Source of the DNA: Gammaproteobacteria bacterium
GTDB taxonomy: Bacteria; Pseudomonadota; Gammaproteobacteria; Magnimaribacterales; AG-339-G14
Reading direction: 5' to 3'
Length of the DNA stretch: 17,225 nt
Assembly (NCBI GenBank): GCA_002689405.1
Contig: NZFZ01000003.1
Span: forward strand, 1 to 17,225
Positions 2,239-17,225 of this stretch are shown here, piece by piece. Each line of letters starts with the position of its first letter. Positions within the stretch are counted from its first letter, which is position 1. The notes under the pieces are model-generated. The model was not told the DNA's origin. It was given only the letters and a program-made list of their open reading frames with translations, and did not search any database. Made by a program: the position numbers and the translations under genes.

Positions 2239-2244
2239 TTAAAG

Positions 2245-3216: not shown

Positions 3217-3219
3217 AAT

Positions 3220-4110
3220 TTAAATTAGATTTAATTCTTCAAGAGAATTTTTCACTGATTTTTTAAACAAATCATTAAGTTCAACCAAAGGCAGTCTTAT
3301 GCCATTTTTTATCAAGCCCATCTCATGCAAAGCCCATTTTACAGGAATGGGGTTAGATTCGCAGAATAAGTTTTGATTAAGATTATATATTTGATCATCC
3401 AATTTTTTTGCCTTAGAAAAATCACTTTGTACAAGCCTACAAATTTCAGAAATTATTTCAGGCACCACATTAGAGGTAACCGAAATGGTTCCATGCCCAC
3501 CTTTTTTCAAGAACTCTAAAGAAGAAAAATCATCTCCAGAATATAAGAAAAAGTTTTTACCTTTGATATCTTCTTCGCACAATTTTAATACCTCAGAAAG
3601 ATTTTTCATGTCTCCAGTGGCATCTTTAATACCCATTATATTTTGATGAGAAGATAACCTTTGGACAGTTTCAGGCTCTATGAAACTAGCTGTTCTAGAT
3701 GGAACGTTATAAAGAATTTGCGGAATATCTACTTCATCAGCTATTTTTGCATGATGTCGGTAAATGCCTTCCTGCGGTGGTTTATTGTAGTAAGGTGATA
3801 CTAGTAAAGCAGCATCTGCTCCTAAGTTTTTTGCTTCTCTCGTAAGTTGCAGAGCTTCCTCAGTCGAATTAGCTCCTGTACCTGCGATGATGTGCACTCT
3901 TCCATTAGATATTCTTATAAAAAATTCTATTAATTTTATATGATCTTCAAAATCTATGGTTGCTGATTCTCCTGTTGTGCCAACTGCCACCAAACCTGAA
4001 ATTCCTGAATCTATTTGAAAGTTGATAAGTTTTTCAAGAGAATTGTAATCAAGGTCTCCTTTTTCGTTCATAGGAGTTACCAAAGCTGTTATAGATCCTT
4101 CAATCGACAT
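3220..4110 (-). CDS. dapA: 4-hydroxy-tetrahydrodipicolinate synthase
   Basis: DapA condenses pyruvate with aspartate semialdehyde, the committed step of lysine and diaminopimelate synthesis, so it also feeds peptidoglycan. The 296 residues form a class I aldolase barrel. Visible active-site motifs are GTTGES (Thr45, Thr46), SPYYNKPPQEG (Tyr108), YNVPSRT (Tyr134, Arg139) and GIKDATGD with the Schiff-base Lys162. These match the E. coli residues offset by one. It is the first gene of dapA-bamC-purC and is divergent from bcp across 67 bases. No convincing Shine-Dalgarno sequence precedes the ATG; the leader is nearly pure A+T. E. coli has gcvR between dapA and bcp, which is missing here. Confidence 0.97.
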   Translation of the reverse strand: MSIEGSITALVTPMNEKGDLDYNSLEKLINFQIDSGISGLVAVGTTGESATIDFEDHIKLIEFFIRISNGRVHIIAGTGANSTEEALQLTREAKNLGADAALLVSPYYNKPPQEGIYRHHAKIADEVDIPQILYNVPSRTASFIEPETVQRLSSHQNIMGIKDATGDMKNLSEVLKLCEEDIKGKNFFLYSGDDFSSLEFLKKGGHGTISVTSNVVPEIISEICRLVQSDFSKAKKLDDQIYNLNQNLFCESNPIPVKWALHEMGLIKNGIRLPLVELNDLFKKSVKNSLEELNLI

Positions 4111-4138
4111 TAATGTTTTATTAATAATTTTTAATAAG

Positions 4139-4147
4139 TGGTATTAT
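4139..4147 (+). promoter_or_regulatory. Possible extended -10 promoter for bcp
   Basis: The motif TGGTATTAT fits an extended -10 element (TG, one base, TATTAT). Transcription would begin near 4154, about 24 bases before the preferred bcp ATG. No good -35 is visible at 17 bases, which extended -10 promoters tolerate. The surrounding AT-richness makes chance matches common. Confidence 0.35.
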
Positions 4148-4177
4148 TCCATATCTTAATTAATCTTGATTGAAAAA

Positions 4178-4630
4178 ATGAAAGTAGGATCAAAAGTAAA
4201 AAATTTTAAGGCGGAGATGACCGGAAAAGCTGATTTTAATTTAGCAGACTATATAGGAAAAAGAATAGTAATTTATTTTTACCCTAGAGATAATACTCCT
4301 GGTTGTACTTCAGAAGGAGAAGATTTTAGAGATAATTACAAATTATTTAAAAAAATGAAAACGGAAATCTTTGGAGTTTCCAAAGATTCTCTAAAATCTC
4401 ACGAAGGCTTTAAAGAAAAATTTAAATTTCCCTTTGAACTAATCTCTGATCCCGACGAAAAGGTTTGCAAAATCTTTGATGTAATAAAAGAAAAAAGCAT
4501 GTATGGAAAAAAATATATGGGTATCGAGAGAAGCACCTTTTTAATTGATTCAAAAGGAAAGCTGATCAAAGAATGGAGAAAGGTAAAAGTTAAAGACCAC
4601 GTTGAAGAAGTCTTATCATCCTTAGATTAA
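4178..4630 (+). CDS. bcp: Thioredoxin-dependent peroxiredoxin, PrxQ/BCP family
   Basis: This is a cytoplasmic thiol peroxidase that reduces hydrogen peroxide and organic hydroperoxides. The product is about 150 residues from the ATG at 4178. A TTG at 4166 would add four residues, but family members usually begin shortly before the KVGSKVKNF-like segment, so the ATG is preferred. The catalytic motif is FYPRDNTPGCTSEGEDF, with peroxidatic Cys43. In two-cysteine members a resolving cysteine lies five residues later, where this protein has Glu48. The only other cysteine is Cys97. It may therefore act as a one-cysteine type or resolve through another thiol. The 3' end overlaps perM by four bases. 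In E. coli bcp is likewise close to dapA and bamC. Confidence 0.93.
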   Translation: MKVGSKVKNFKAEMTGKADFNLADYIGKRIVIYFYPRDNTPGCTSEGEDFRDNYKLFKKMKTEIFGVSKDSLKSHEGFKEKFKFPFELISDPDEKVCKIFDVIKEKSMYGKKYMGIERSTFLIDSKGKLIKEWRKVKVKDHVEEVLSSLD

Positions 4631-5679
4631 TTTATTAGGTCTTCTCTTGTAGGCCATGCAAGCATTATTGCTCTTAAAAAAGTTGCAATAGGAATTGCCA
4701 ATAGAAGACCCCAAAAGCCCCATATGCCACCGAAAATTAAAACTGCCGTAATAATTATGACCGGGTGTAATTTTACTTCTCTACCCAAAAGCAAAGGCAT
4801 TAGAACATTTCCATCTAAAGCCTGAATAATCAAATAACTTGTAATAAAAATATAAAAACTGGAGTCAAGCCCCCATTGAAAAAGGCCAATTAAAACCACG
4901 GGAATTGTAACTAAAATTGCTCCAACATAAGGTATCAAAACTGATAAACCTACTAAGATAGATAAAATGATTGAATAATTCACTTCCTGAAAATAAAAAA
5001 CAAATCCAGTTACAAGAGCAACAATGATCATTTCCAAGCCCTTTCCTCTTAAGTAACCATACAATTGAATATTTAAATCATTCCATATTTTTGTTAGCAG
5101 GTTCTTTTTTTTGGGCAATAGATCTTTAGCATGATTAATAAAAATATCCCTATCTTTGAGCAGGAAAAATACTAAAAAAGGAACAATAATTAAATAAAGT
5201 AAAGCGTTCATTACAGCTGAGAATCCTGAATTAAGCTGCAACAAAGCGTTTTGAAATAATGTGGGGACATAAGAAAAAGCATTTATTATTACTTCATCTA
5301 ATTGATTTGATTGGAGTTCATATTGAGCCAGTTGATTGGATAAAAATGTGTTGACCGATTCGTAGATTTGCGGGATGTCCGAAACCAAAAGCAAAATCTG
5401 TCTTGATAAAAATGGTAAAAATAAAAATATGGATAAATAAAATAAGCCAAAAATAAATAGAGTGACTGATAAGGCTAAAATTCTACTATTACCTTTTTCT
5501 TCCATAAAGCTCATCAATCCATTAAGAATGTAAGCGATTAAAATACTCACCAAAACAGGAGCAATTATCCCACCCAAGAAATATAAAATTACAATTCCGA
5601 TTGATAAAATAAATAAAGCAGCATATTGCTCGTCATCATAAAAATACTTATCAAAGAAATTTTTTAAGAAATTAATCAT
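4627..5679 (-). CDS. perM: AI-2E transporter (PerM/YdiK) family membrane protein
   Basis: The 350-residue polytopic inner-membrane protein matches the E. coli PerM length (about 353). Hydrophobic segments occur in an N-terminal pair (about 20-45 and 65-95), a central one around 155-175 ending in FLLKDRD, and a C-terminal set from about 210 onward. The FLLKDRD segment, LIPYVGAILVTIPV and IQALDGNVLMPLLLGREVKLHPV are typical of the family. Some family members have been linked to AI-2 export or other small-molecule transport, but the substrate of PerM-type members is not settled and none is assigned here. It is divergent from bepA across 36 bases, and perM and bepA are also neighbours in E. coli, which supports the symbol. 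Confidence 0.85.
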   Translation of the reverse strand: MINFLKNFFDKYFYDDEQYAALFILSIGIVILYFLGGIIAPVLVSILIAYILNGLMSFMEEKGNSRILALSVTLFIFGLFYLSIFLFLPFLSRQILLLVSDIPQIYESVNTFLSNQLAQYELQSNQLDEVIINAFSYVPTLFQNALLQLNSGFSAVMNALLYLIIVPFLVFFLLKDRDIFINHAKDLLPKKKNLLTKIWNDLNIQLYGYLRGKGLEMIIVALVTGFVFYFQEVNYSIILSILVGLSVLIPYVGAILVTIPVVLIGLFQWGLDSSFYIFITSYLIIQALDGNVLMPLLLGREVKLHPVIIITAVLIFGGIWGFWGLLLAIPIATFLRAIMLAWPTREDLIN

Positions 5680-5701
5680 CTGTTTCTAACTTTAGATTTC
5701 A

Positions 5702-5709
5702 ATTATACT
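5702..5709. promoter_or_regulatory. Overlapping divergent -10 elements for perM and bepA
   Basis: In the 36-base gap between perM and bepA, bases 5702-5707 read TATAAT on the - strand and bases 5704-5709 read TATACT on the + strand. The two -10-like hexamers share four bases. The + strand element would start transcription at or within a base or two of the bepA ATG (5716). The - strand element would give perM a leader of about 17 bases. No strong -35 is visible on either side. Confidence 0.4.
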
Positions 5710-5715
5710 TTCTAA

Positions 5716-7158
5716 ATGGCAAATAAATTATATTTATTATTATTTGTATTGTTTTTTTCTTCTTATTTTCATTCGGTAATAGAAGAAGACCCTCTTCCAG
5801 CATTGGGTGACTATTCCTCAGCTTCCATATCCTTATCAGGCGAATATGAAATGGGAAGACTTTGGTTAGCAATGTATAGAGGTTCAACGGAGGAATATAC
5901 TGATCCTTTAATGAGAACTTATCTTGAAGATTTAATTTATCGTCTTTCAGAAACAAGTGAAGTAAGAGATAGAAGATTTGAATTCATTATATTAGAAGAC
6001 AAAACGATTAATGCCTTTGCTGCGCCTGGAGGAATAATAGGAATTAATTTAGGCATGTTTTTAAACACAGAAAGAGAAGGAGAGCTTGCTTCGGTAATGT
6101 GCCATGAATTAGCTCATTTAAGTCAAAGACATTTTGCCAGGTCTCAAAATAGAAATTCTCCTTTAGCTAATGCTCTTATGATTCTTGGAAGCATTGCAGT
6201 TGCTGCTGCTTCCAGAAACCCTGAAGCAATATTGATTGCACCAGCCGCCATGCAACAAATGTCTATAAATTACACAAGAAGCAACGAGAAAGAGGCAGAC
6301 AGAATAGGCTTTAATAATCTAGTAAAAGCAGGCTTTGATCCAAATGACATGGTTATGATGTTTCAAAGAATGCAAGATAAATATCAAAATGAGGATTCCG
6401 AACAGTTTTCCTATCTTATGACTCACCCTCTTCCAAGTGAAAGACTTGCTGATATGAGAATTAGGTCCGATGGTTTTAATAAGACTTCAAAAAATTCATA
6501 TAGAGATAATATGGATTTTTATTTGATGCAAAAACGCGCTCAAGTTTGGGCAGAAAAAGATATAAAAAGTTTAGTAAAGAGATTCAAGAAAGGCCAAAAA
6601 TCGCAAAATAAAAATATCCAAGTTTCAAATACATATGGCTTATCACTTGCTTACAAAAAAAACAAAGATTTTGAAAAAAGCTTTGGTATTTTGAGAGAAC
6701 TCGTAAAAGAAATACCTAATAATTTAGTATTTGAATCCAGTCTGATGGAGCTTCATCTTGCAGCAGGAAACTATTATGAAGCTATATCACTTGGAAAAAA
6801 TATATTAGAGATTCATGAAAATAATTACTCTGCTTCAATGTTGCTTGCTGATGCATATATTAAAAATGAACAGTCTGATTTGGCAGAAAAGCTTTTAAAA
6901 TTTTTAGCTAAAGATAGACGAACTGATCCAAATGTTTGGTTTAAACTCGCTGAAGTTCAAGGTTTATCAGGAAATATTCTTGAACTGCATAGATCCAGGG
7001 CTGAATTTTTTATTTTGACTGGCAGACATGATGCAGCTGTATTTCAACTAAAGGAAGCTCTATCTCTTTCACAAAATCTATTTGAAGTCAGGGAAAGCAT
7101 TATTAGGCGCTTGGAAGAAATTTTTGCAGCAAAAAGAGCTTTGACAGAACTATCCTAA
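5716..7158 (+). CDS. bepA: Periplasmic M48-family metalloprotease/chaperone with TPR domain (BepA-like)
   Basis: This is a periplasmic zinc metalloprotease that in E. coli helps assemble LptD and degrades stalled outer-membrane proteins at the BAM complex. The 480-residue product (E. coli about 487) begins with a signal peptide (hydrophobic to about residue 20). The zinc site is HELAH at 130-134, with the third ligand Glu193 in NEKEADRIG. The THPLPSERLADMR segment contains His237, equivalent to the regulatory His-switch region. The TPR-rich C-terminal half runs from about 265 to 470. No Shine-Dalgarno sequence precedes the ATG, and a -10-like element ends six bases upstream, so a leaderless mRNA is possible. 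Adjacency to perM matches E. coli. The gene overlaps the convergent HIT gene by four bases. Confidence 0.93.
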   Translation: MANKLYLLLFVLFFSSYFHSVIEEDPLPALGDYSSASISLSGEYEMGRLWLAMYRGSTEEYTDPLMRTYLEDLIYRLSETSEVRDRRFEFIILEDKTINAFAAPGGIIGINLGMFLNTEREGELASVMCHELAHLSQRHFARSQNRNSPLANALMILGSIAVAAASRNPEAILIAPAAMQQMSINYTRSNEKEADRIGFNNLVKAGFDPNDMVMMFQRMQDKYQNEDSEQFSYLMTHPLPSERLADMRIRSDGFNKTSKNSYRDNMDFYLMQKRAQVWAEKDIKSLVKRFKKGQKSQNKNIQVSNTYGLSLAYKKNKDFEKSFGILRELVKEIPNNLVFESSLMELHLAAGNYYEAISLGKNILEIHENNYSASMLLADAYIKNEQSDLAEKLLKFLAKDRRTDPNVWFKLAEVQGLSGNILELHRSRAEFFILTGRHDAAVFQLKEALSLSQNLFEVRESIIRRLEEIFAAKRALTELS

Positions 7159-7499
7159 CCAGGAAATAAATCAACAAAGTTTTTTCCAGCTAAAAGATGT
7201 ATGTGAAGATGAAAAACTGTCTGCCCAGCTTTCTCTCCATTATTTATAACTACGTTGAATGCATCTTGAACATCTAGTTGTTCTGCAACTTTTTTAACTA
7301 CCATCATTAAATGGCCTAATAAGGCCTGATCAGGTTTTTTAGCCTCAGATAGTTTTTGAATAGGTTTTTTTGGGATTATAAGAATATGAATTGGAGCCTT
7401 GGGAGCAATGTCTTCAATTGCAATACATTTGTCATCCTCATAAACAATATTCGAGGGGAGTTCTCTATCAATAATTTTTTCAAAAATTGTTTTAGTCAT
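7155..7499 (-). CDS. HIT-family nucleotide hydrolase (HinT-like)
   Basis: This is a small cytoplasmic histidine-triad protein. Family members of this branch hydrolyse nucleoside phosphoramidates such as lysyl- or other acyl-AMP. From the ATG at 7499 the product is 114 residues. Upstream in-frame codons inside crcB are rejected because HinT proteins start close to the TIFEKI segment. The triad is HLHIH at 97-101, with the preceding AGQTVF and the upstream PIHILIIPKKP typical of HinT. The usual N-terminal zinc-binding Cys (IFCKI) is Glu here, so metal binding there is unlikely. It starts one base after the crcB stop and ends overlapping bepA by four bases. It is the last gene of the long minus-strand run. 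Confidence 0.9.
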   Translation of the reverse strand: MTKTIFEKIIDRELPSNIVYEDDKCIAIEDIAPKAPIHILIIPKKPIQKLSEAKKPDQALLGHLMMVVKKVAEQLDVQDAFNVVINNGEKAGQTVFHLHIHLLAGKNFVDLFPG

Positions 7500-7500
7500 A

Positions 7501-7857
7501 TTAAGCAAACATCTTATATCCAATAAAAGTTGCTAGTAAACAAATAGATGTGATGACTAAAGCAATAAAATATGCCGTTAGTATTCCATTTGTAGTTGAA
7601 AATAATAAAACTTCTTTAGTAAAGGCTGAAAAAGTTGTAAAAGAACCTAAGAAACCAATGACAACTATTGGGCCAATAAGCTCCTTGTTTGAGAAATTAA
7701 TTGCTAAAAAAGTTCCTATTAAAAAACAACCAATTAAATTCACAGTTAACGTTCCTAAAGGAAATCCTAAGAAAATTATTTTTGCTAGGAATGAGCTTAA
7801 AAGGAATCTTGAAACTGCACCAAAAAAAGCACCAATTCCTATTAGAAGATAAATCAT
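7501..7857 (-). CDS. crcB: Fluoride ion channel CrcB/Fluc
   Basis: This dual-topology inner-membrane channel exports fluoride. The product has 118 residues and four predicted membrane segments, the usual Fluc size. Diagnostic motifs are GAFFGAVSRF near the N terminus, GTLTVNLIGCFLIG with the pore Asn40, and GFLGSFTTFSAFTKE at 68-82 with the phenylalanine-box residues Phe76 and Phe79. The start codon lies only six bases after the encoded CCA of tRNA-Lys, with no Shine-Dalgarno sequence and no room for a fluoride riboswitch. Expression probably depends on read-through from the tRNA or cpoB transcript, followed by tRNA processing. A single crcB copy is enough for a homodimeric channel. Confidence 0.95.
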   Translation of the reverse strand: MIYLLIGIGAFFGAVSRFLLSSFLAKIIFLGFPLGTLTVNLIGCFLIGTFLAINFSNKELIGPIVVIGFLGSFTTFSAFTKEVLLFSTTNGILTAYFIALVITSICLLATFIGYKMFA

Positions 7858-7863
7858 AACTTT

Positions 7864-7939
7864 TGGTGGGTCGTATAGGATTCGAACCTATGACCAATTG
7901 ATTAAAAGCCAACTGCTCTACCAACTGAGCTAACGACCC
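7864..7939 (-). tRNA. tRNA-Lys (anticodon TTT)
   Basis: The reverse strand folds as a 76-nt tRNA including an encoded CCA (7864-7866). The acceptor stem pairs GGGTCGT with ACGACCC, the D arm is GCTC with loop AGTTGGTAGA, the anticodon loop is CTTTTAA (anticodon TTT), and the T arm is ATAGG-TTCGAAT-CCTAT. It is nearly identical to E. coli tRNA-Lys; the visible changes include a G-T pair closing the anticodon stem and an altered T stem. It lies 19 bases after cpoB, and the tol-pal cluster of E. coli is likewise followed by a tRNA-Lys gene. Confidence 0.98.
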
Positions 7940-7949
7940 AAAAAAAAAG

Positions 7950-7955
7950 ATTATA
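7950..7955 (-). promoter_or_regulatory. Possible -10 element for tRNA-Lys
   Basis: A perfect TATAAT lies on the - strand in the 19-base gap between cpoB and tRNA-Lys. Transcription would start near 7944, about five bases before the mature tRNA 5' end, which suits a dedicated tRNA promoter. The -35 would fall inside the cpoB 3' end, where TTAAAT at 17-base spacing is a weak match. Confidence 0.45.
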
Positions 7956-7958
7956 CCT

Positions 7959-8660
7959 TTATTGAGAATTTAATTTAATTAAATCTTGTTCTGCAAGTAA
8001 AGCGGCTCCAGAGTTTGGATAATTACTTATAACTTCTTGTAAGAGAATCTCAGCAGAGTCCAATTCTTCTAAATTAATTTTTGCAAGAGCAAGTTTGTAC
8101 AAACCATCTACCTTCCTGGGATGATCATCAAACTTTGATACAAAAGCATTCAAAATTTCAGAGGAATCTTCAAACATTTCTTGGACTAAATAAATTTCAC
8201 CCAACCAAAAATAAGCATCGCCTACATAAGTTCCGTTTGGATAAGAAAGTATCAAAAGCCTTAAGTTTTCTGCTGCTTCTGAATATCTAGAATTATCAAG
8301 CAACTTAATAGAATTTGACCAAAGACCGAATTCTCCTGAGTCAATATCTTCTTCTATAAGCCCTGACAAAGGATTTATGGATTGATCAGAAGATTCTTCG
8401 TTTTGAGCTTCTTCAAATAGTAATTTTGTTTCCAAAAGGTGTATCCTTTTGTCCAAGTCAATATACCTAATTTGGTTTGCTTCTTCCAACCTAGAAATAG
8501 TTAAGTTATTTGTTTCTATTGAAGCTGTTAAAGACTCTATTTCTTTCTTCAAAAGATTTATTTTTTCAAGAAGAAGCTCTACGGATTCAGTGTTTTGCAA
8601 AATTGCAAAATTAGACGAACCCAAAAAAATAAAAAAAAGAAAGTTTTTTAGAATTTTCAA
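7959..8660 (-). CDS. cpoB: Cell division coordinator CpoB (YbgF), periplasmic coiled-coil/TPR protein
   Basis: CpoB is a periplasmic protein that coordinates peptidoglycan synthesis by PBP1B with Tol-driven outer-membrane constriction. The 233-residue product has a signal peptide (about 1-20), a heptad-rich coiled coil from about 27 to 90 that should mediate oligomerisation, and a TPR domain from about 110 to 230 (repeat cores NSRYSEAAENLRLLILSYPN, EMFEDSSEILNAFV and ELDSAEILLQEVISNYPN). The start is TTG at 8660, one base after the pal stop. No ATG lies before the signal peptide, so TTG is the only sensible start. It is somewhat shorter than the E. coli protein (about 263). Its position right after pal is the standard one. 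Confidence 0.92.
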   Translation of the reverse strand: MKILKNFLFFIFLGSSNFAILQNTESVELLLEKINLLKKEIESLTASIETNNLTISRLEEANQIRYIDLDKRIHLLETKLLFEEAQNEESSDQSINPLSGLIEEDIDSGEFGLWSNSIKLLDNSRYSEAAENLRLLILSYPNGTYVGDAYFWLGEIYLVQEMFEDSSEILNAFVSKFDDHPRKVDGLYKLALAKINLEELDSAEILLQEVISNYPNSGAALLAEQDLIKLNSQ

Positions 8661-8661
8661 T

Positions 8662-9141
8662 CTAATAAAGAGAGATTTCTACCCTTCTATTTTCAGCCCA
8701 AGCTTTTTCATTTGATGCACTTTTAAGAGGCTTTTCTTCGCCAAAACTTACTACTCTAATTTTTTTGCCAGATACTCCTTTCACAATAAGAAAGTCTCTC
8801 ACCTCAAGTGCTCTTCTTTCTCCGAGTGCTAAATTGTATTCTCTTGTTCCCCTTTCATCACAGTGGCCTTCCAAGCGTACTATTTTTGCCTTTTTTATTT
8901 CTGGTAAATACTGCTCGAGTAAATTTTTATCTTCTGCATCTAAAGTGGATTTATCAAAATCAAAATAAACTTTATCGTCTAGATTAGTTTCAAGCCTTTC
9001 TTCTTGAAGATATTCGTCCCCTGCTACAGAGGCATATTGCATTCGTTCTACTGAATCTGACACATTCGCAGCACAAGAATATACCTGACAAAGCATTGCT
9101 AAAATAAATATTCCAATTGGTTCCATAAATAGTCTCCTCAT
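8662..9141 (-). CDS. pal: Peptidoglycan-associated lipoprotein Pal
   Basis: Pal is an outer-membrane lipoprotein that binds peptidoglycan and TolB. The 159-residue product (E. coli 173) has a signal peptide and a probable lipobox VYSC with Cys23; Cys18 is a less likely alternative. The OmpA-like domain at about 55-159 shows VYFDFDKSTL, LEGHCDERGTREYNLALGERRA (92-111) and NRRVEI. The peptidoglycan-contacting Asp95 is present. The ATG at 9141 has AAGGAG eight bases upstream and gives the expected Arg-Arg N region. A second ATG five codons later has AGGAG seven bases upstream and is a real alternative. It follows tolB across 73 bases, the widest gap inside the tol-pal run. Confidence 0.96.
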   Translation of the reverse strand: MRRLFMEPIGIFILAMLCQVYSCAANVSDSVERMQYASVAGDEYLQEERLETNLDDKVYFDFDKSTLDAEDKNLLEQYLPEIKKAKIVRLEGHCDERGTREYNLALGERRALEVRDFLIVKGVSGKKIRVVSFGEEKPLKSASNEKAWAENRRVEISLY

Positions 9142-9168
9142 TGTTAAAGCTCCTTCTTTAATATAATG

Positions 9169-9196
9169 ATTATAATACTTTTCCTTTAGACAAGAA
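9169..9196 (-). promoter_or_regulatory. Possible internal promoter for pal-cpoB
   Basis: A perfect TATAAT (9169-9174, - strand) is preceded at 16 bases by TTCTTG (9191-9196), a weak -35. A TTGTCT also occurs, but at only 13 bases. Transcription would start about 20 bases before the pal ATG, just upstream of its AAGGAG. This fits extra transcription of the abundant lipoprotein Pal. Confidence 0.4.
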
Positions 9197-9214
9197 ATTT
9201 TATATTAAGTTTGT

Positions 9215-10498
9215 TTAATTTAATAATGGCGACCAGGCTGGTTCTCTTACTGATCCATTTTTAACAGGTAATGAAAATCTTGATTTTCCATCTAAGGTGA
9301 TTCCTCCTAAATAACCATTAGATCCATCTTTTGTCGCATAAATAATGATATTCCCATTTGGAGAAATAGTAGGTGATTCATCTAGCGAAGTAGAGGTCAA
9401 AGTCTCAATGTATCTACTGGAAAGTTTTTTTGTTGCGATCTGAAAATTTCCATTGTTTCCATGAACAAAAAATATAGATTTTCCATCAGGAAAATATCTT
9501 CCCCTGGCATTATAATTACCATCTCTGGTTAATCTTTTTTTTCTTTTAGATTGTGTATTAATTTCATAAAGCTGTGGAGAACCTGACCTGTCAGATGTAA
9601 AAATAATTTTTTTTGAATCTGGAGACCATGATGGTTCGGTATCGATTCCATAATGATTTGTCAGCCTTATTAATCTTTTGCTGTTTATAGAATATAAAAA
9701 AATATCTGGATTTCCTGAAAAAGAAACTACTAAGGCTAAGCTCTTCCCATCGGGTGACCAAACTGGAGCACTATTTGTCATTCCAAGAGCCTGGATTGAA
9801 TTTCTTTCACCAGATTGTAAGTCTTGAATAAAAATTTCCGCTAAACCATTTTCGAAAGATACATATGCCATTTTTTTCCTATCAGGAGACCAATCAGGAG
9901 ACATTATTGGAGCCTTGGAAGAAAAAAGAATTTGTTCGTTTTTACCATCAATATCTGAAATGCACATTTGATATGTATCAGCATCAGAATTGATAACGTA
10001 TGCCAGTTTCGTATCAAATATTCCTTTCAAGCCTGTAATTTCCTCATAGATTCTATTACTGATAATTTTTGAAATTCCTTCGATATTATCTTCACTTCCA
10101 ACAATTTCTCCCTCTAGTAACTTAATTCTTCGATTTATATTGAATAATGAATATGAAATATTTAAATTTCCTAAGGAGTTAACGGAATTTACTTTTCCAA
10201 TTACTGAATAATCTACTCCAAGTACTTTCCAATCCCTATAATAAAAATCATTTCCTGAGCTAGGATAAGACAGCATCTCACTCTTAGGTAGATTTTCAAA
10301 CTCCCCAAATAAAAGCATATTCTTTTCGATATTTCTAGATATCTGCCTGCCATAGCTTTCTTCAATACCGTCGTCTACGCCAAAGGGAACAAATGCAATT
10401 TTTGATAAATTATCACTGCCCTTTAAGATCTCTATTTCTAAAATAGAAAAAATACTATTAGAAACTAAAATTAATGCTACAAACAAAAATCTAATCAC
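9215..10498 (-). CDS. tolB: Tol-Pal system periplasmic protein TolB
   Basis: TolB is a periplasmic protein that shuttles between Pal and TolA. The 427 residues (E. coli 430) comprise a signal peptide (about 1-18), an alpha/beta N-terminal domain containing KIAFVPFG and a six-bladed beta-propeller. The propeller repeats appear as MSPDWSPDRKKMAYVS, APVWSPDGKSLALV, EPSWSPDSKKIIFTSDRSG, GRYFPDGKSIFFV, SPTISPNGNIIIYAT and REPAWSPLLN. The start is GTG at 10498, overlapping the tolA stop by four bases (GTGA), and is preceded by a good GGGGAG about seven bases upstream. The last blade closes near the C terminus, so the protein looks complete. Confidence 0.96.
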   Translation of the reverse strand: MIRFLFVALILVSNSIFSILEIEILKGSDNLSKIAFVPFGVDDGIEESYGRQISRNIEKNMLLFGEFENLPKSEMLSYPSSGNDFYYRDWKVLGVDYSVIGKVNSVNSLGNLNISYSLFNINRRIKLLEGEIVGSEDNIEGISKIISNRIYEEITGLKGIFDTKLAYVINSDADTYQMCISDIDGKNEQILFSSKAPIMSPDWSPDRKKMAYVSFENGLAEIFIQDLQSGERNSIQALGMTNSAPVWSPDGKSLALVVSFSGNPDIFLYSINSKRLIRLTNHYGIDTEPSWSPDSKKIIFTSDRSGSPQLYEINTQSKRKKRLTRDGNYNARGRYFPDGKSIFFVHGNNGNFQIATKKLSSRYIETLTSTSLDESPTISPNGNIIIYATKDGSNGYLGGITLDGKSRFSLPVKNGSVREPAWSPLLN

Positions 10499-11115
10499 TC
10501 TATCTCCCCAGATGATTTAAAAACCAAGTTAAAATTTCTAAAGTTTTGTTCAAATAGCTTTCTATCAAGGGATAAGACTTCTTCAAAAAAAGTCATTTTA
10601 TTCATTGCAGTTAAAATAGAATTGTTGAAAGAAGAATTGATACTTGGTTCAATCAAATCAAAATTTAATAACTCACCAGAAGGAGCAAGGTTTATTGATA
10701 CCTTTGCTATTAAAGATTCACTCAAAGAATTTGGCTTAATCCAAATTGAAGAAATTCTTGCTTGTATGATTGCTGAAACTCTCAAAATATCTTCTCTTTC
10801 CTTTGAAAGCTTAATTTTACTGATTTCGTTTTTGATATCTAATTTATTAATTTTAAATTTAGAAACAATAGCTGCTTCAGCAGCTTTTATCTTTTCATCA
10901 GTTGCAGAAGTTTTTTTTGTTTCTTTTTTAACTGTTGTTTTAGGAAAAGATGAATCGAACAATATATCCTCTTCTTGAATTAATTCATAAAAATTAACTC
11001 GAATAGATTGCGTCTTGTCTATATTAAGCTTTGGGATAGAAAAAATTGAAAAAATCAAAGATAGAAATAAAAGAACCAAAAAAAAAGTGTTTAAACTAGT
11101 TAAAGCCTTATTCAT
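10495..11115 (-). CDS. tolA: Tol-Pal system protein TolA (unusually short)
   Basis: TolA is the inner-membrane-anchored protein that transmits energy from TolQR to TolB-Pal. The product has only 206 residues against about 421 in E. coli. It has a membrane anchor (about 8-27), a reduced linker of about 80 residues with a Lys/Glu/Ala-rich stretch (63-105), and a C-terminal domain from about 108. The C-terminal domain contains ILRVSAIIQARISSIWI and SINLAPSGELLNFDLIEPS, which fit the TolA/TonB C-terminal fold. The whole protein has no histidine, so the S-x3-H motif of the TolA anchor that contacts TolQR is not conserved. The call rests on this architecture plus the position between tolR and tolB. 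It overlaps tolR by eight bases. Confidence 0.87.
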   Translation of the reverse strand: MNKALTSLNTFFLVLLFLSLIFSIFSIPKLNIDKTQSIRVNFYELIQEEDILFDSSFPKTTVKKETKKTSATDEKIKAAEAAIVSKFKINKLDIKNEISKIKLSKEREDILRVSAIIQARISSIWIKPNSLSESLIAKVSINLAPSGELLNFDLIEPSINSSFNNSILTAMNKMTFFEEVLSLDRKLFEQNFRNFNLVFKSSGEIE

Positions 11116-11539
11116 TTTTAATGGGTTCAGTTATGAGATTAATAGAATCTGTTTTAAATTTTTTTATCAAAGACATTGTTTGAGCTACATTGTCATAGAG
11201 TGTTTCTTTGTCAGCTCTTAAAAATATCTCTACTTTTGGATTATTTTTTAAAATTTTTTCAAACTGTTCTGCAAATGACTGAAAACTTTTATAACTTTCA
11301 TTCTTCTCGCCTAGATCAAGAGAATAAAATCCCTCTTTGCTGATTGAAACAGTTAAATTATCGTCTTTAGATTTATTCAGAGCTTGTGCTTCGGTTTTTG
11401 GTAAATCAAGATCAATTCCTTGAATCATAAATGGTGTCGCAACCATGAAAATAACTAACAAAACTAATGAAATATCCACATATGGAATTACGTTAATTTC
11501 TGTTAAAAGCTTTCTACTTTTTTCTCGTCTCTTGGACAT
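11108..11539 (-). CDS. tolR: Tol-Pal system protein TolR
   Basis: TolR is an ExbD-like inner-membrane protein which, with TolQ, converts the proton gradient into movement of TolA. The 143 residues match the E. coli length (142). A basic cytoplasmic N terminus is followed by EINVIPYVDISLVLLVIFMVATP, with the essential membrane aspartate at Asp22, then LDLPKTEAQ. The periplasmic domain ends with an ExbD/TolR-like helix containing FLRADKETLYDNVAQTMSLIKK. The ATG at 11539 gives the expected N terminus but overlaps the end of tolQ by 26 bases, the longest same-strand overlap here. tolA overlaps its end by eight bases. Confidence 0.96.
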   Translation of the reverse strand: MSKRREKSRKLLTEINVIPYVDISLVLLVIFMVATPFMIQGIDLDLPKTEAQALNKSKDDNLTVSISKEGFYSLDLGEKNESYKSFQSFAEQFEKILKNNPKVEIFLRADKETLYDNVAQTMSLIKKFKTDSINLITEPIKNE

Positions 11540-12185
11540 TGAATTCTTGGTAAGTTATTAAAAGTTCAGATGTAAAATTTTCGTAACTCCTAATAATCAT
11601 GTCAATTCTTTTGACACTCCAATTGTAGGAAATAAGGGCAGGTATAGCAGCGAAAAGACCCAAGGCAGTTGCCACCAAAGCTTCAGATATTCCTGGAGCT
11701 ACAGCATTTATTGATACTTGAGAAAGTTGTGCTAAACCACTAAAAGCATTCATAACTCCCCAGACAGTTCCAAATAGTCCTATAAAGGGGCTTACAGATG
11801 CTACAGTAGATAAAAAGGATAATCCTTCTTCTAATCTTTCTTCTTGCCTATTAATTATTATTTCTGTTGACTTATTGATGCGGTCTTCAGCTTTTTCAAA
11901 ATTTTCTGCTTTTAAAAATTCTTCATGAGAAATTACAAAGATTTGAGATAGTCCAAAATTATCTTCTTTACGATTGAGTTCATTAAATATTTTTTCAATA
12001 TTTCTAGAGTTCCAAAACTCTGTTTCAAACTCAAAGATATCCTTTTTCGCTCTGCTTAAGGTAAGCCACTTATCAAAGATAAACCACCAGGAAGTTCCCG
12101 CTAGAATAAACAAAACAATCATCACTAACTGAACAACTAAGCTTGCTCCTAAAAATAAATCTACAAAACTTAATTCAGCTTGCAT
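11514..12185 (-). CDS. tolQ: Tol-Pal system protein TolQ
   Basis: TolQ is an ExbB/MotA-like inner-membrane proton-channel subunit that drives TolA together with TolR. The 223 residues (E. coli 230) show three membrane segments at about 12-36, 124-148 and 165-186, with a large cytoplasmic loop between the first two. Conserved motifs are SVSPFIGLFGTVWGVMNAF, with Thr140, and APGISEALVATALGLFAAIPA, with Thr173. These correspond to the channel-lining threonines of the family. It starts at ATG 12185 inside the end of ybgC (11-base overlap), and its last 26 bases overlap tolR, so the three proteins are probably translationally coupled. Confidence 0.97.
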   Translation of the reverse strand: MQAELSFVDLFLGASLVVQLVMIVLFILAGTSWWFIFDKWLTLSRAKKDIFEFETEFWNSRNIEKIFNELNRKEDNFGLSQIFVISHEEFLKAENFEKAEDRINKSTEIIINRQEERLEEGLSFLSTVASVSPFIGLFGTVWGVMNAFSGLAQLSQVSINAVAPGISEALVATALGLFAAIPALISYNWSVKRIDMIIRSYENFTSELLITYQEFNVQETRKK

Positions 12186-12582
12186 TTTTTTTATCCAACA
12201 TCTTTTTTCTTAGCTCATCTGGAAGAGCAATGGGTTTTTTAGTTTCAAGATCAACACAGCCGCATAATACATTAGCTTCACACATTATTTGTGAATTTAT
12301 AACAACTCTTTGGTTAAAGCTAAAACTAGCTTTCTTTAATTCTGAAAGAGAAGATTCTATTTTTATTAATTGATCTAATAGAACAGGTTTTTTGTAATGA
12401 ATGTCTAATTTATTAACAATGAAAATAATGTTTTTGTCTAATAGTTCGTTTTGTAGATAACCACACTTTCTTAGAAATTCAGTTCTAGCTCTTTCAAAAT
12501 ATTTAAGATAATTAGCATAAAAAACTACACCTTGTGCATCCGTATCTTCATAGTAAATTCTTAGCTCTATGGTATCTGACAT
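12175..12582 (-). CDS. ybgC: YbgC-family acyl-CoA thioesterase of the tol-pal operon
   Basis: YbgC is a cytoplasmic hotdog-fold acyl-CoA thioesterase, standard first gene of tol-pal operons and associated with phospholipid synthesis proteins in E. coli. The 135 residues (E. coli 134) contain the family signature YYEDTDAQGVVFYANYLKYF, with the catalytic Asp15, followed by ERARTEFLRKCG. The start codon shares one base with the stop of the upstream nuclease gene (TAATG), and the end overlaps tolQ by 11 bases. No frame disruption or truncation is visible. Its exact physiological substrate is not settled in the family. Confidence 0.95.
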   Translation of the reverse strand: MSDTIELRIYYEDTDAQGVVFYANYLKYFERARTEFLRKCGYLQNELLDKNIIFIVNKLDIHYKKPVLLDQLIKIESSLSELKKASFSFNQRVVINSQIMCEANVLCGCVDLETKKPIALPDELRKKMLDKKNAS

Positions 12583-12989
12583 TAAAGATGGCTTTTTATA
12601 TCTTCCTCAAAGAGAGATTTAAGTAAAACTATGAAGCTCTCTAAAGAAAAATCGCATGTATTATTAAAATCTTTAGGAAGATTATCGTTCAAAGTATGGA
12701 GTGGAACTCTCACCTTGATAGGTCTGTGATTAAATTTATAGATCAAAGCTGGATAACTACCTTCTGGAGTTGCAGCAATCACTTGATCCCACCAGCCTTC
12801 AAGAGGTTCTGCGCCTTGCCCATATCTCTTGCATTCTATATACCAATTACCAAGAATAAGATCTGGAAGATATTTTTCTCGAGTTTGCTCCAATATTCTT
12901 TTTAATGGTTTTTTTAATTCTAAAGAATCATTCAATGCATTTGCAATTTCTCTTTCAAATGATGCTCCCTTATTCCTTGAATTCGTCAT
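12582..12989 (-). CDS. Putative PD-(D/E)XK nuclease, Holliday junction resolvase-like
   Basis: This 135-residue protein looks like a small PD-(D/E)XK nuclease of the kind found in phages and in archaeal Hjc resolvases. A basic N-terminal segment SRNKGASFEREIANAL provides the conserved glutamate (Glu12) of the first helix. The core is YLPDLILGNWYIECKRYG, with Asp43, Glu52 and Lys54 in the D-(9)-E-x-K arrangement expected of the active site. GWWDQVIAA, then YPALIYKFNHRPIKVRV, resembles the downstream helix and strand of phage resolvase-like proteins. The start is the ATG that shares a base with the yebC stop (TGATG); a TTG one codon earlier is possible. It occupies the place of ruvC-ruvA-ruvB in pseudomonad gene order. 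Nuclease fold is likely; resolvase activity is inference. Confidence 0.6.
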   Translation of the reverse strand: MTNSRNKGASFEREIANALNDSLELKKPLKRILEQTREKYLPDLILGNWYIECKRYGQGAEPLEGWWDQVIAATPEGSYPALIYKFNHRPIKVRVPLHTLNDNLPKDFNNTCDFSLESFIVLLKSLFEEDIKSHL

Positions 12990-13723
12990 CAAGCAAAGCT
13001 CCCTTCCGAAAACTCAGCATTAGAATGAACACTTTGCACATCATCCAGATCTTCAAGATTTTCAAGAAGATTGATAACTTTTTCTGAAGCTTCATCATCA
13101 AGCTCAACGCTATTTGATGCTTTCATAAGCAACTCGTATTGGTTGATTTTGATTTCATTCTCTTCTAGAACTTTTTTAAGATTGTGAAATTCCTCAACTT
13201 CAACAGAGATGATGAGATTATCTTCATCACCCTGTTCTACTTCATCTGCACCATTGGATACAGAGATATCAAATATTTTTTCCTCATCAGAATTTTCAAC
13301 GACTATTTGACCAATTTTGGTAAATAGATATGCTACAGAACCATCGGTACCTAAACTTCCTCCATACTTTGAAAAGGCATGCCTAACTTCAGCAACTGTT
13401 CTATTTTTATTATCCGTTAAAGTTTCAATGATTATGGCAACCCCATTGGGACCATAGCCTTCATAAATGGTTTCTTCTAAATTTTCTGCTTCCTGATCTC
13501 CAGAACCTCTTGCTATGGCTCTTTCTATTGTATCTTTTGGCATATTGGCCCCAAGGGCCTTATCTAGAGCCAGTCTTAATCTGGGATTATCTCCTGGCTC
13601 AGGTCCTCCCAATTTAGCAGCAACGGTAAGCTCTCTTATAAGTTTTGAAAAAACTTTTTGTCTTTTTTCATCTTGACGACCTTTGCGATGTTTTATGTTG
13701 GCCCACTTAGAATGTCCCGCCAC
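12989..13723 (-). CDS. yebC: YebC/PmpR family protein (TACO1-like)
   Basis: This cytoplasmic protein of the YebC family is known in different bacteria as a transcriptional regulator or as a factor that relieves ribosome stalling on proline-rich motifs. The 244 residues (E. coli 246) start with the invariant MAGHSKWANIKHRKGRQD. GPNGVAIIIETLTDNKNRTV and HAFSKYGGSLGTDGSVAYLF follow. The start is GTG at 13723, sharing a base with the aspS stop (TAGTG). The MAGHSKW terminus makes the start certain. An acidic loop around 145-165 is normal. It lies between aspS and the nuclease gene; in pseudomonads ruvC follows here. Confidence 0.97.
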   Translation of the reverse strand: MAGHSKWANIKHRKGRQDEKRQKVFSKLIRELTVAAKLGGPEPGDNPRLRLALDKALGANMPKDTIERAIARGSGDQEAENLEETIYEGYGPNGVAIIIETLTDNKNRTVAEVRHAFSKYGGSLGTDGSVAYLFTKIGQIVVENSDEEKIFDISVSNGADEVEQGDEDNLIISVEVEEFHNLKKVLEENEIKINQYELLMKASNSVELDDEASEKVINLLENLEDLDDVQSVHSNAEFSEGSFA

Positions 13724-15486
13724 TATTTATCCTCTTCAAGAACTTTTATGGAAAGCATATCTAATTGATCTTGATCAATTAAACTTGGTGCATCGGAAAG
13801 CAAGCAGGTTGCTGATTGGGTCTTTGGAAAAGCAATTACATCTCTGATGGATTCTTGTTTACAAAGCAACATGATCAAACGATCCAATCCAAAAGCAATT
13901 CCGCCATGAGGAGGACATCCATAGGACAAAGCTTCTAAAAAGAAGCCAAATTTTTCATCCGCTTCTTTTTTATCTATTCCTAAAATTGATAATACTTCCA
14001 ATTGTTCATCTAAATTGTTAATTCTCAAAGAGCCGCCTCCAATTTCACTGCCGTTCAAAATAAGGTCATATGCTTTTGCAACAGCATTTGCAGGATCTTT
14101 CTTTAGTTCTTTGAGCCCTCCTTGAGTAGCAGTAAAAGGATGGTGTGATGGAGATAAGTTCCCTTGAATGTCCTCTTCAAATAAAGGAAAGTCTGTTATC
14201 CATCCGAATTTAAAAGCCTCTTTATCAATTAAGTTAAGATCTTCACCTAATTTTTCTCTCAATGAGCCCATTGAATCATTCACAACATTTCTGTGATCGG
14301 CACCAAAAAAAACGGTGTCTCCAGAACTTAGATTAAGCCTTTCAACTAAACTAGAAATCTCTTCTTTAGAAAGGAACTTAAGAATTGGAGACTGAAGACC
14401 ATTTTCAAGATCAGTAGAATCATTGACTTTTATATAAGCTAGTCCTTTTGCTCCAAAATTACCGACAAATTTAGTGAACTCATCTATTTTATTTCTGCTT
14501 ATTTCTTGTTCAATTTTAAGGGCAACAATTCTTGCCTTTTCATTCTTAGCAGGATCGGCAAAAACCTTAAATGAAGACTTTTCAAAAATATCTTTTACAT
14601 CAACAAGTTTTAAGGGGTTTCTTAAATCAGGTTTATCTGAGCCATAATCCTTTATTGCTTCTTGATATTTAATTCTTTGGAAATCATCAAACTCTATATT
14701 TAAAGTTTCATAAAAAATTCTTTTAATAAGGCTTTCAGATATGCTGAGAATTTCTGCTTCTGAAATAAAAGATAATTCGATATCCAATTGAGTGAATTCT
14801 GGCTGCCTATCTTTTCGGGTATCCTCATCCCGAAAGCATCTAACAATTTGAAAGTATTTTTCAAAACCTCCAATCATCAACATTTGTTTGAAAAGCTGTG
14901 GTGACTGAGTGAGTGCATAAAACTTTTGATTGTAAAGTCTGCTTGGGACAAGAAAATCCCTGGCTCCTTCCGGAGTAGCTCTAGCCATCATTGGGGTTTC
15001 AATTTCAATAAACTGATCTTCAATGAGATAACTTCTAACGATGTGATTTACTTGCGATCTTATTTTCAGATTTGATTGCATTTCCGGTCTTCGTAAATCC
15101 AAGTAACGGTATTTAAGACGAACCTCTTCGCCGACTTTTGTATGTTCATCTAGTTGAAAAGGCAAAGGTTTGCTTTTGGAAAGGATATCAATTTCTTTTG
15201 AAACCAATTCTAGTTCTCCTGAAGCCAATGACTCATTTATTGTACCTTTAGGCCTTTTTCTGAGAATTCCTGTAACTTCAAGAACATAGGACATTCTTAT
15301 TGATTCCGACTTTTTGAATAAATCTTTATCTTCTGGCTCAACAACAACTTGCATTAATCCAGATGCGTCTCTGATATCTAAAAATATGACACCGCCATGA
15401 TCCCTGACTTTTTCAACCCACCCAGAAATAAGAAAGGAAGAATCGATTTCTTTATTAGAAATGTTTGTTATTTGAGTGCGTTCCAT
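13723..15486 (-). CDS. aspS: Aspartate-tRNA ligase (predicted non-discriminating, Asp/Asn)
   Basis: This class II synthetase charges tRNA-Asp. The 587 residues (E. coli 590) comprise an OB-fold anticodon domain (1 to about 105), the catalytic core beginning with YRYLDLRRPEMQ, motif 2 FRDEDTRKDRQPEFTQLDIE, a bacterial GAD insertion (about 280-420), GGGSLRIN and motif 3 with PPHGGIAFGLDRL. The anticodon domain has His30 in VRDHGGVIF and Gly81 in RPKGTIN. These correspond to His31 and Gly83 of the non-discriminating Pseudomonas aeruginosa enzyme, where E. coli has Leu and Lys. It may therefore also form Asp-tRNA-Asn for transamidation by GatCAB. The zinc-ribbon gene lies 14 bases upstream. Confidence 0.97.
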   Translation of the reverse strand: MERTQITNISNKEIDSSFLISGWVEKVRDHGGVIFLDIRDASGLMQVVVEPEDKDLFKKSESIRMSYVLEVTGILRKRPKGTINESLASGELELVSKEIDILSKSKPLPFQLDEHTKVGEEVRLKYRYLDLRRPEMQSNLKIRSQVNHIVRSYLIEDQFIEIETPMMARATPEGARDFLVPSRLYNQKFYALTQSPQLFKQMLMIGGFEKYFQIVRCFRDEDTRKDRQPEFTQLDIELSFISEAEILSISESLIKRIFYETLNIEFDDFQRIKYQEAIKDYGSDKPDLRNPLKLVDVKDIFEKSSFKVFADPAKNEKARIVALKIEQEISRNKIDEFTKFVGNFGAKGLAYIKVNDSTDLENGLQSPILKFLSKEEISSLVERLNLSSGDTVFFGADHRNVVNDSMGSLREKLGEDLNLIDKEAFKFGWITDFPLFEEDIQGNLSPSHHPFTATQGGLKELKKDPANAVAKAYDLILNGSEIGGGSLRINNLDEQLEVLSILGIDKKEADEKFGFFLEALSYGCPPHGGIAFGLDRLIMLLCKQESIRDVIAFPKTQSATCLLSDAPSLIDQDQLDMLSIKVLEEDK

Positions 15487-15500
15487 AATAGAAAGATTTT

Positions 15501-15782
15501 TTAATCTTTTTTAGTAGGTTTTGAGTTTTCTGTTTTCTTTGGTTCCTTAGATGTTTTTTTACTTTTAACATCTGATTGTACAAGATTTTTTTTATTGCCT
15601 GTCTTAAAGTCAGTTTCGTACCATCCTGACCCTTCTAAACGAAAGGATGGGGCTGAGATAATCTTTTTAGCCCTTGCCTTTGGCGAACAATCACAAAACA
15701 CAGTTTTTGTAGAATCTGCTACAGAAACAATTCTTTCAAATATTTTGTGGCATTTACTACATTGGTACTCATAAATAGGCAT
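15501..15782 (-). CDS. FmdB-family zinc-ribbon protein
   Basis: This small putative regulatory zinc-ribbon protein has no settled function. The 93 residues begin with MPIYEYQCSKCHKIFE, with Cys8 and Cys11, and continue with a second cysteine pair Cys30 and Cys32. IISAPSFRLEGSGWYETDFK, a strongly conserved FmdB signature, follows. The tail after residue 65 is rich in lysine, serine and threonine and probably disordered. The second cysteine pair is spaced C-x-C rather than the usual C-x-x-C. The ATG is preceded by GAGGAATA, a good Shine-Dalgarno sequence, and the gene is divergent from proS across 71 AT-rich bases. An fmdB-type gene directly before aspS is common in gammaproteobacteria and probably starts this operon. 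Confidence 0.9.
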   Translation of the reverse strand: MPIYEYQCSKCHKIFERIVSVADSTKTVFCDCSPKARAKKIISAPSFRLEGSGWYETDFKTGNKKNLVQSDVKSKKTSKEPKKTENSKPTKKD

Positions 15783-15853
15783 TATTCCTCACTGAAAGCA
15801 TCTTTTTTTAGTATTATTAATTTTTTAAAGCAGAATATTAATTTATATTTTAA

Positions 15854-17131
15854 ATGAAAGCTTCCTCATTTCACTATAAAACTCAAAAAGAAGCCCCAAA
15901 AGACGCTGAACTCATAAGCCACAAACTTATGATCAGAACTAATATGATAAAACCTCTGGCTTCTGGTATTTATTCGTGGATGCCCCTAGGATTAAGGATT
16001 CTCAATAAGGTCGAATCTATCATTAGAAGAAATATGAATGAGTACGGTTGTCTAGAAGTTTTAATGCCAATGGTTCAACCAAAATCACTATGGGACGAAA
16101 CAAAAAGGTCAGAGCAAATGGGTCCAGAACTTTTAGGTTTTTTGGATCGTAATGAAAGGGAATTTTACCTCGGACCTACTCATGAAGAAGTCATTTCCGA
16201 TATATGTCGGCAAGAACTGCAAAGTCATAAAGACCTGCCTAAAACTTTTTATCAAATACAAACAAAATTTAGAGATGAAATTAGACCTAGATTTGGCGTA
16301 ATGCGAGGCAGAGAGTTCTTAATGAAAGATGCTTATTCATTTGATCTTAATGAAGAAGGGATGAGCAAAAGCTATAAAGCTATGAAAGAGTGTTATCAAA
16401 AAATATTTGATGAGATTGGCTTTGATTACAAAATTGTAAAAGCTGATTCAGGTGCAATTGGTGGGAATATGTCTGAAGAATTTCATGTCTTAGCTGATTC
16501 TGGTGAAGATACATTGGTATTCAACGATAACGATTTTTCATCAAATATTGAATTGTTGGAAGATTCCTTAAAAACCGAAATTGAAAAAAAAATTGAAAAT
16601 AACGATCTGTCTGACATTGATAGTGAGTATGGCAAACTTTCAATTAAAAAAGGAATTGAGGTAGGTCATATATTTGAGCTAGGTAATAAATACAGTAAAT
16701 CTATGGGTTTAAGTGTCCAACATGATAATAGTCAAAAAATTTTAGAAATGGGCTGTTACGGAATTGGAGTTTCACGAATTGTTGCAGCTGCTATAGAGCA
16801 AAATCATGATAGTGAAGGTATTGTTTTTCCAAGAAATATTTCTGCTTTTGATTGTTCCTTAATTTCAATCAATGAAAAGAAATCAGAGATAGTTAAAAAC
16901 AAAGCTAAAGAAATATACTCTTATTTAATGAATAACAAAGTAGATGTCTTTTATGACGATAGAGATGCATCTCCAGGTAATAAATTTTCTGATTCCAATT
17001 TAATGGGAAATCCTTATCAAATAGTCATTAGCGAAAAAAATGTTGAAAAAGGCTCAATAGAAATAATTAATAGAAGAGATCAGGCAAAATCTGAAATAAT
17101 GGAAAAAGACTTATTGGGTCTCTTTAATTGA
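15854..17131 (+). CDS. proS: Proline-tRNA ligase lacking the editing (INS) domain
   Basis: This class II synthetase charges tRNA-Pro. The product has 425 residues, against about 572 for E. coli ProRS. The catalytic core is complete: [28 protein letters not shown] (105-113), [28 protein letters not shown] (137-164) and motif 3 [17 protein letters not shown] (300-316), then an anticodon-binding domain with [18 protein letters not shown]. The roughly 180-residue YbaK-like insertion, which in E. coli removes mischarged alanine, is replaced by a charged linker at about 233-262. Core similarity is to the bacterial-type enzyme; a shortened insertion is also known in alphaproteobacteria. No Shine-Dalgarno sequence precedes the ATG and the leader is A+T only. 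The 3' end overlaps recA by 21 bases. Confidence 0.96.
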
Positions 17132-17225
17132 GTCTGTAATCTGTTTTTCTATTTTCTTAGCTATATTAGGGTTATCTTTTAGCCACTGACTAGCATTGAT
17201 TTTACCTTGACCAATTTTTTCACCA
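17111..17225 (-). CDS. recA: RecA recombinase, C-terminal end (partial)
   Basis: Only the last 37 codons lie in the window; the gene continues beyond the right edge. The translated end contains [19 protein letters not shown], then [17 protein letters not shown] and a TAA stop at 17113-17111. GEKIGQGK followed by the AxxWLKDNP helix is the RecA C-terminal domain. E. coli RecA continues about 20 residues further with an acidic tail that is absent here, so the protein ends just after the helix. The last 21 bases overlap the end of proS on the opposite strand. RecA catalyses strand exchange and LexA co-cleavage. Identification rests on this short but characteristic stretch. Confidence 0.9.

Follow-up and report, generated by a model that had tools for sequence, protein, structure and literature searches.

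A PD-(D/E)XK nuclease in the ruvC slot of SAR86, a candidate Holliday-junction resolvase in place of RuvABC

RuvABC is a very widely conserved recombination machine of bacteria, and SAR86 is one of the abundant lineages of the surface ocean. The present work deals with a small gene encoding a predicted nuclease of the PD-(D/E)XK superfamily, found in SAR86 next to yebC, and more precisely in a stretch of 17,225 nucleotides (the window, i.e., positions 1 to 17,225 of the forward strand of contig NZFZ01000003.1, assembly GCA_002689405.1) from a genome of Gammaproteobacteria (Magnimaribacterales; AG-339-G14) assembled to 1.07 Mb and 68.5% complete. Respective to the closest described systems, RuvC adopts the fold of the retroviral integrase superfamily, as stated in the consulted part of PMC3834835, and YebC is associated with RuvC in the accessible part of PMC3403352. 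According to the latter source, RecU is the stand-in for RuvC in Firmicutes, where RuvAB is kept and recU lies far from ruvAB. The VRR-Nuc proteins, namely psNUC, stNUC, and saNUC, are described in the consulted sections of PMC4103454 as small dimers of Hjc-like fold, with a conserved Gln and symmetrical junction cleavage in vitro.

At this locus, the nuclease is considered as the Holliday-junction resolvase of SAR86, having replaced RuvABC in place before the SAR86 families diverged, a reading to which a probability of roughly 80% is given. The evidence is computed and comprises (i) the prediction of fold and motif, (ii) the slot, (iii) the order-wide presence, (iv) purifying selection, and (v) missing genes, namely RuvC, RuvB, and RusA throughout the order sample and RuvA within the home family, i.e., the family of the source genome. 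A preliminary description made from the letters of the window had suggested a non-homologous replacement of RuvC, perhaps with loss of RuvAB, by a virus-derived nuclease, and had proposed structure prediction, a survey of the slot in related genomes, and a genome-wide search for ruvCAB as checks; the replacement, with the loss, is supported by slot, fold, and absences.

Family, motif, and predicted fold

By score, the nuclease is a member of the Pfam family PF24608 (PDDEXK_15, phage putative PDDEXK endonuclease; 3e-9, 37.4 bits for a cut-off of 27), which is the sole family listed at E<=1 and is also matched by all 46 aligned relatives with E-values up to 0.1. It further matches phrog_244 at 1.2e-13. 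With a median ratio of non-synonymous to synonymous substitutions (dN/dS) of 0.064 and a maximum of 0.252, as estimated over 94 of the 105 pairs that 15 congeneric sequences form (the other 11 being dropped for saturated or very low dS), these matches lead to the rejection of a chance open reading frame. The PHROGs label of phrog_244 is RusA-like Holliday junction resolvase, whereas fold and profile of the nuclease match Hjc; despite this label, the RusA family PF05866 is not matched by the nuclease, and neither are the RuvC family PF02075 nor the Pfam VRR_NUC family, the VRR-Nuc structure 4qbn giving a non-significant profile match (E 0.61).

Glu12, Asp43, Glu52, and Lys54 are located where the preliminary description had placed them and are invariant in 70/70 distinct SAR86 proteins, together with Arg5, Lys7, Gly8, Arg31, and Gln69. 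In the predicted model (predicted local distance difference test, pLDDT, of 91), a helix (4-23) is followed by strands 44-46, 49-56, and 79-86 and a helix at 64-72, i.e., the Glu-Asp-Glu-x-Lys site is borne by the alpha-beta core characterising the PD-(D/E)XK superfamily. The top PDB matches of this fold are the archaeal Holliday-junction resolvases Hjc/Hje and, when the nuclease profile is compared to the Hjc profile, all four catalytic residues fall in register. The initial likening to phage or Hjc-type resolvases is thus supported, and a fold devoid of the PD-(D/E)XK core, which would have contradicted the preliminary description, is not what the model shows. With the narrow profile A1 (16 rows, 12 from SAR86 and four viral), the match to Hjc was weak, and a single-sequence search of the PDB gave no useful match. 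The Hjc family PF01870 is not matched by the window nuclease at E<=1 and is matched weakly by three of the 46 relatives (best 0.0042). Thus, the modelled nuclease resembles Hjc in fold and catalytic register yet falls outside the Hjc family.

By analogy with Hjc and the dimeric phage VRR-Nuc proteins, the nuclease would act as a homodimer binding the four-way junction through basic residues close to its N terminus and surrounding the active site, where Glu12, Asp43, Glu52, and Lys54 with Mg2+ would nick two opposing strands symmetrically. Junction cleavage and dimerisation are what we infer here, as is a phage origin. Alternatively, the protein could be a structure-specific repair or debranching enzyme sitting in the slot by chance, with junctions handled by RecG, by topoisomerase dissolution, or by an unknown resolvase. 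This is deemed unlikely: VRR-Nuc proteins of similar fold show some cleavage of forks or 3' flaps as well, as reported in the consulted part of PMC4103454, but the structures that the fold matches best are enzymes dedicated to resolving four-way junctions.

The slot in SAR86 and in other Gammaproteobacteria

The order sample consisted of 199 SAR86 genomes, of which 40 combine a completeness of at least 90% with a contamination of at most 5%. Using profile A1, the nuclease was found in 177 of the 199, in 38 of these 40, and in 22/22 genera, with two matches in one genome (G059); using the single sequence, it was found in 37 of 40 home-family genomes, each time as a single copy. Of the 22 genomes devoid of a match, four were examined, namely G070, G072, G074, and G080, among them both with a completeness of at least 90%; each of the four has a contig that stops short of the slot. 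The nuclease comes directly after yebC in all 16 nuclease-bearing genomes fetched, which belong to four families. Besides, a scan of named contigs with two peptide patterns revealed relatives at 61 loci, mostly in contigs titled SAR86, with some under the title Gammaproteobacteria bacterium and a single Thaumarchaeota metagenome-assembled genome, the closest being SAR86 cluster bacterium contigs with up to 97% identity; yebC lies immediately 5' of the nuclease at 61/61 loci and ybgC 3' at 59/61.

Some departures are found downstream of the gene. In the SAR86-type contigs L149 and L150, the nuclease is followed by a gene other than ybgC, which we take to be acetolactate-synthase-like. In the three f4 genomes (L172-L174), no ybgC was detected downstream of the nuclease, itself still attached to yebC, and one of them, G045 (L173), gave no tolQRAB-pal match downstream within the stretch.

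The relatives outside SAR86 come mainly from viral collections, as would be expected of a recent prophage remnant, but such an origin, or an assembly artefact, is hardly credible for a gene under purifying selection, with housekeeping genes as neighbours and present at one and the same site in four families, at 61/61 loci, and in 22/22 genera. Order-wide synteny excludes both, and recent insertion was rejected on the same grounds; the early view of an integral operon member holds. It also goes against a debranching enzyme placed by chance that the nuclease follows yebC, i.e., occupies the ruvC position, at every SAR86 locus examined.

Considering the class as a whole, 369 genomes were drawn, namely four of SAR86 and 365 others. 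RuvC was found in 343, i.e., 0/4 and 343/365, respectively, and the RuvC-bearing genomes include some of 0.3-1.1 Mb. The nuclease profile matched 4/4 SAR86 genomes and 3/365 others, the latter with distant relatives and one of them with two copies. As a separate matter, 22 of the 365 gave no RuvC match, several of these genomes being nearly complete (e.g., two f42 genomes of 1.1 Mb). The slot was surveyed in 18 of the 343 RuvC-bearing genomes, most of them taken from the head of the list: yebC lies on the same strand 5' of RuvC in 16 (14 within 400 bases, two at 406 and 694), and tolQ at most 4 kb downstream in 13. At locus L195, proS, fmdB, aspS, yebC, RuvC, and tolQ succeed one another in SAR86 order and orientation with further open reading frames in between, and RuvC occupies there the position held by the nuclease in SAR86. 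In most RuvC-bearing relatives examined, the position of the nuclease is therefore that of ruvC. The comparison in the preliminary description had been made with pseudomonads; the genome is one of SAR86.

Recombination genes missing from or retained in SAR86

RuvC (PF02075) was found neither in the 199 order genomes, and hence in none of the 40 at least 90% complete, nor in the source genome. The RuvB equivalog TIGR00635 exceeded its cut-off in 0/199, weak matches in 197 reaching at best 37.1 bits for a cut-off of 299. RuvA (PF01330) was found in 0/40 home-family genomes and RusA (PF05866) in 0/199, and the latter was rejected as the true resolvase. Because the source genome is merely 68.5% complete, these absences rest on its relatives. 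RecA is present in 61/61 SAR86 genomes.

Taken at face value, one result weighs against the displacement of RuvABC, i.e., the Pfam domain RuvB_N matches 40/40 home-family genomes, 34 of them over its cut-off. The scores are of 18-27 bits (27-33 with in-frame neighbours), the open frames range from about 120 to 800 residues, and four archaeal controls are matched as well; for these reasons, the matches are read as probable other AAA+ proteins, presumably ClpX, Lon, or DnaX. The possibility that RuvABC is present elsewhere, and was missed through incomplete genomes or high divergence, draws on these 34 genomes, on the incompleteness of the source genome, and on the 159 of 199 order genomes falling outside the class of at least 90% completeness and at most 5% contamination. 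It is nonetheless very improbable, since RuvC was found in 0/40 genomes of that class and in 343/365 genomes outside SAR86 by the same search, RuvB_N is unspecific, and the RuvB equivalog remains far below its cut-off. RuvABC elsewhere in the genome was thus rejected, and the genome-wide search did not bring the intact ruvCAB that would have contradicted the preliminary description.

As for RecG, TIGR00643 is matched over nearly its full length in 46 of the 61 genomes (22 of them over cut-off), with fragments or split genes in three more (G022, G079, and G082). No match of RecG length was found in the other 12, of which 11 (G041, G044, G047, G050, G053, G056, G059, G071, G077, G080, and G083) are all the sampled genomes of the f3 genera g6, g9, g10, and g11, including the single-contig genome G044, and the twelfth is G036. 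In the RecG-less f3 genomes, TIGR00643 matches only in frames of 656-1101 residues, a length suggestive of Mfd- and PriA-like helicases. A sub-lineage of SAR86 thus seems to be without RuvAB and RecG together, though RecA is present. The presence of RecG in most sampled lineages would suit a debranching enzyme, RecG then taking charge of junctions; the failure to find RuvC, RuvB, or RusA in the order sample, or RuvA in the family, argues in the opposite direction.

Under the reading of the nuclease as the SAR86 resolvase, it would have come to occupy the slot aspS-yebC-[ruvC-ruvA-ruvB]-ybgC-tolQ, RuvA and RuvB being lost along with RuvC. Branch migration would be ensured by RecG in most lineages; in the f3 lineages lacking RecG, either another helicase would be required or no helicase at all. 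Even odds are given to the wider proposal that the order swapped the whole of RuvABC, in place, for one phage-type resolvase and that f3 genera g6, g9, g10, and g11 dropped RecG in addition, with junctions processed there by a viral-style nuclease working alone, without either standard branch-migration motor of bacteria.

Window, viral relatives, and known resolvases

The features of the window are given in Table 1. The open reading frame, its coordinates, and its 135 residues are as first described, to which the minus strand is now added; the one-base overlaps with yebC (TGATG) and ybgC (TAATG) were likewise confirmed, both neighbours being NCBIfam equivalogs over cut-off. The identity of proS was also confirmed with NCBIfam, and the names of the remaining tol-pal block genes are assumed. 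In the 17 SAR86 genomes counted, recA and the nuclease share a contig and are 4-10 kb apart; in the genome of the window, recA sits at the end of a contig (C40:174-959), which would fit an assembly break.

Table 1. Location of the nuclease gene and other features in the window
Feature	Position	Strand	Remarks
PD-(D/E)XK Hjc-like nuclease, 135 aa	12582..12989	-	start ATG at 12989, stop ends 12582; predicted catalytic Glu12, Asp43, Glu52, Lys54; invariant Gln69
yebC	12989..13723	-	NCBIfam equivalog over cut-off; upstream of nuclease
ybgC (tol-pal associated thioesterase)	12175..12582	-	NCBIfam equivalog over cut-off; downstream of nuclease
aspS	13723..15486	-	NCBIfam; operon neighbour upstream
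tolQ	11514..12185	-	NCBIfam; first tol-pal block gene downstream
tRNA-Lys (ttt)	7864-7939	-	

Outside SAR86, the nearest relatives are found in IMG/VR viral contigs (L035-L045, 57-61% identity), which are probably marine; the best match to a named phage stands at 36.7%. In L035, L036, L037, L039, L041, and L044, the gene stands within a block of lysis and virion-structure genes; some neighbours are presumably lysozyme-like and virion-like, and one matches phage stabilization proteins. This context hints at a role of the viral relatives in packaging or debranching, and it speaks for a debranching enzyme in SAR86, for which debranching at packaging would offer a possible precedent.

In a tree of 59 rows, the 32 SAR86 rows make up one side of a branch (98/88), adjoined by the close viral cluster (100/98 for the combined group), and neither f1 nor f2 makes up one side of a branch by itself. 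Of the 27 rows from outside SAR86, the viral scan supplied 23 and class genomes four; since a viral collection is the source of most of them, the tree's viral appearance is partly a matter of sampling. Independent support comes from the rarity of the family in cellular genomes (3/365 in the class, and SAR86-type loci only in the scan of named contigs), and a viral family background is supported by these sequence comparisons. Approximately unbiased (AU) tests do not reject viral rows nested in SAR86 (p 0.485 for f1, 0.392 for the other families), for which reason no direction is claimed for the last transfer. From the term "virus-derived," it is thus a family seen mainly in viruses that stands. 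If the SAR86 crown is correctly dated to about 503 million years, or earlier under other models, as given in the consulted part of PMC10703444, the replacement would date back at least about as far.

In the open-licence literature, no publication on Holliday junction, ruvC, or ruvA in SAR86 was found, and no title or opening of an abstract among the papers listed by wider searches describes such a replacement, so that, within what was searched, a displacement of RuvABC throughout an order seems not to have been reported; the guess at the activity is not new, as some relatives already carry the automatic name Holliday junction resolvase. We rate the case as a probable non-orthologous displacement of RuvC, itself a known kind of event, here together with the loss of RuvAB. 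If true, the resolvasome would be dispensable in a free-living cell retaining RecA, SAR86 would offer a natural system for asking whether junction resolution requires branch-migration motors, and a function would be suggested for the phage family PDDEXK_15.

Compared to known resolvases, the SAR86 nuclease shares with archaeal Hjc/Hje (PF01870) the small PD-(D/E)XK fold and the pattern K-G...E-R...R...D...E-x-K in register, but differs by its invariant Gln69 and Trp66-Trp67 and by its occurrence in bacteria and viruses. It is a member of PDDEXK_15 (PF24608)/phrog_244, described as a phage family, but is here fixed in a bacterial order and in the ruvC slot. With the VRR-Nuc nucleases, it has in common a small Hjc-like fold and a conserved Gln; these belong to a different Pfam family and, in the consulted part of PMC4103454, are not described as replacing RuvABC. 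In contrast to RecU, the known bacterial substitute, which accompanies a retained RuvAB as far as the accessible part of PMC3403352 goes, it sits in the ruvC slot itself and RuvAB was not found. With RuvC, finally, it shares the operon slot beside yebC and presumably the cellular job, but it belongs to a different fold superfamily, and the RuvAB partners were not found in the SAR86 samples.
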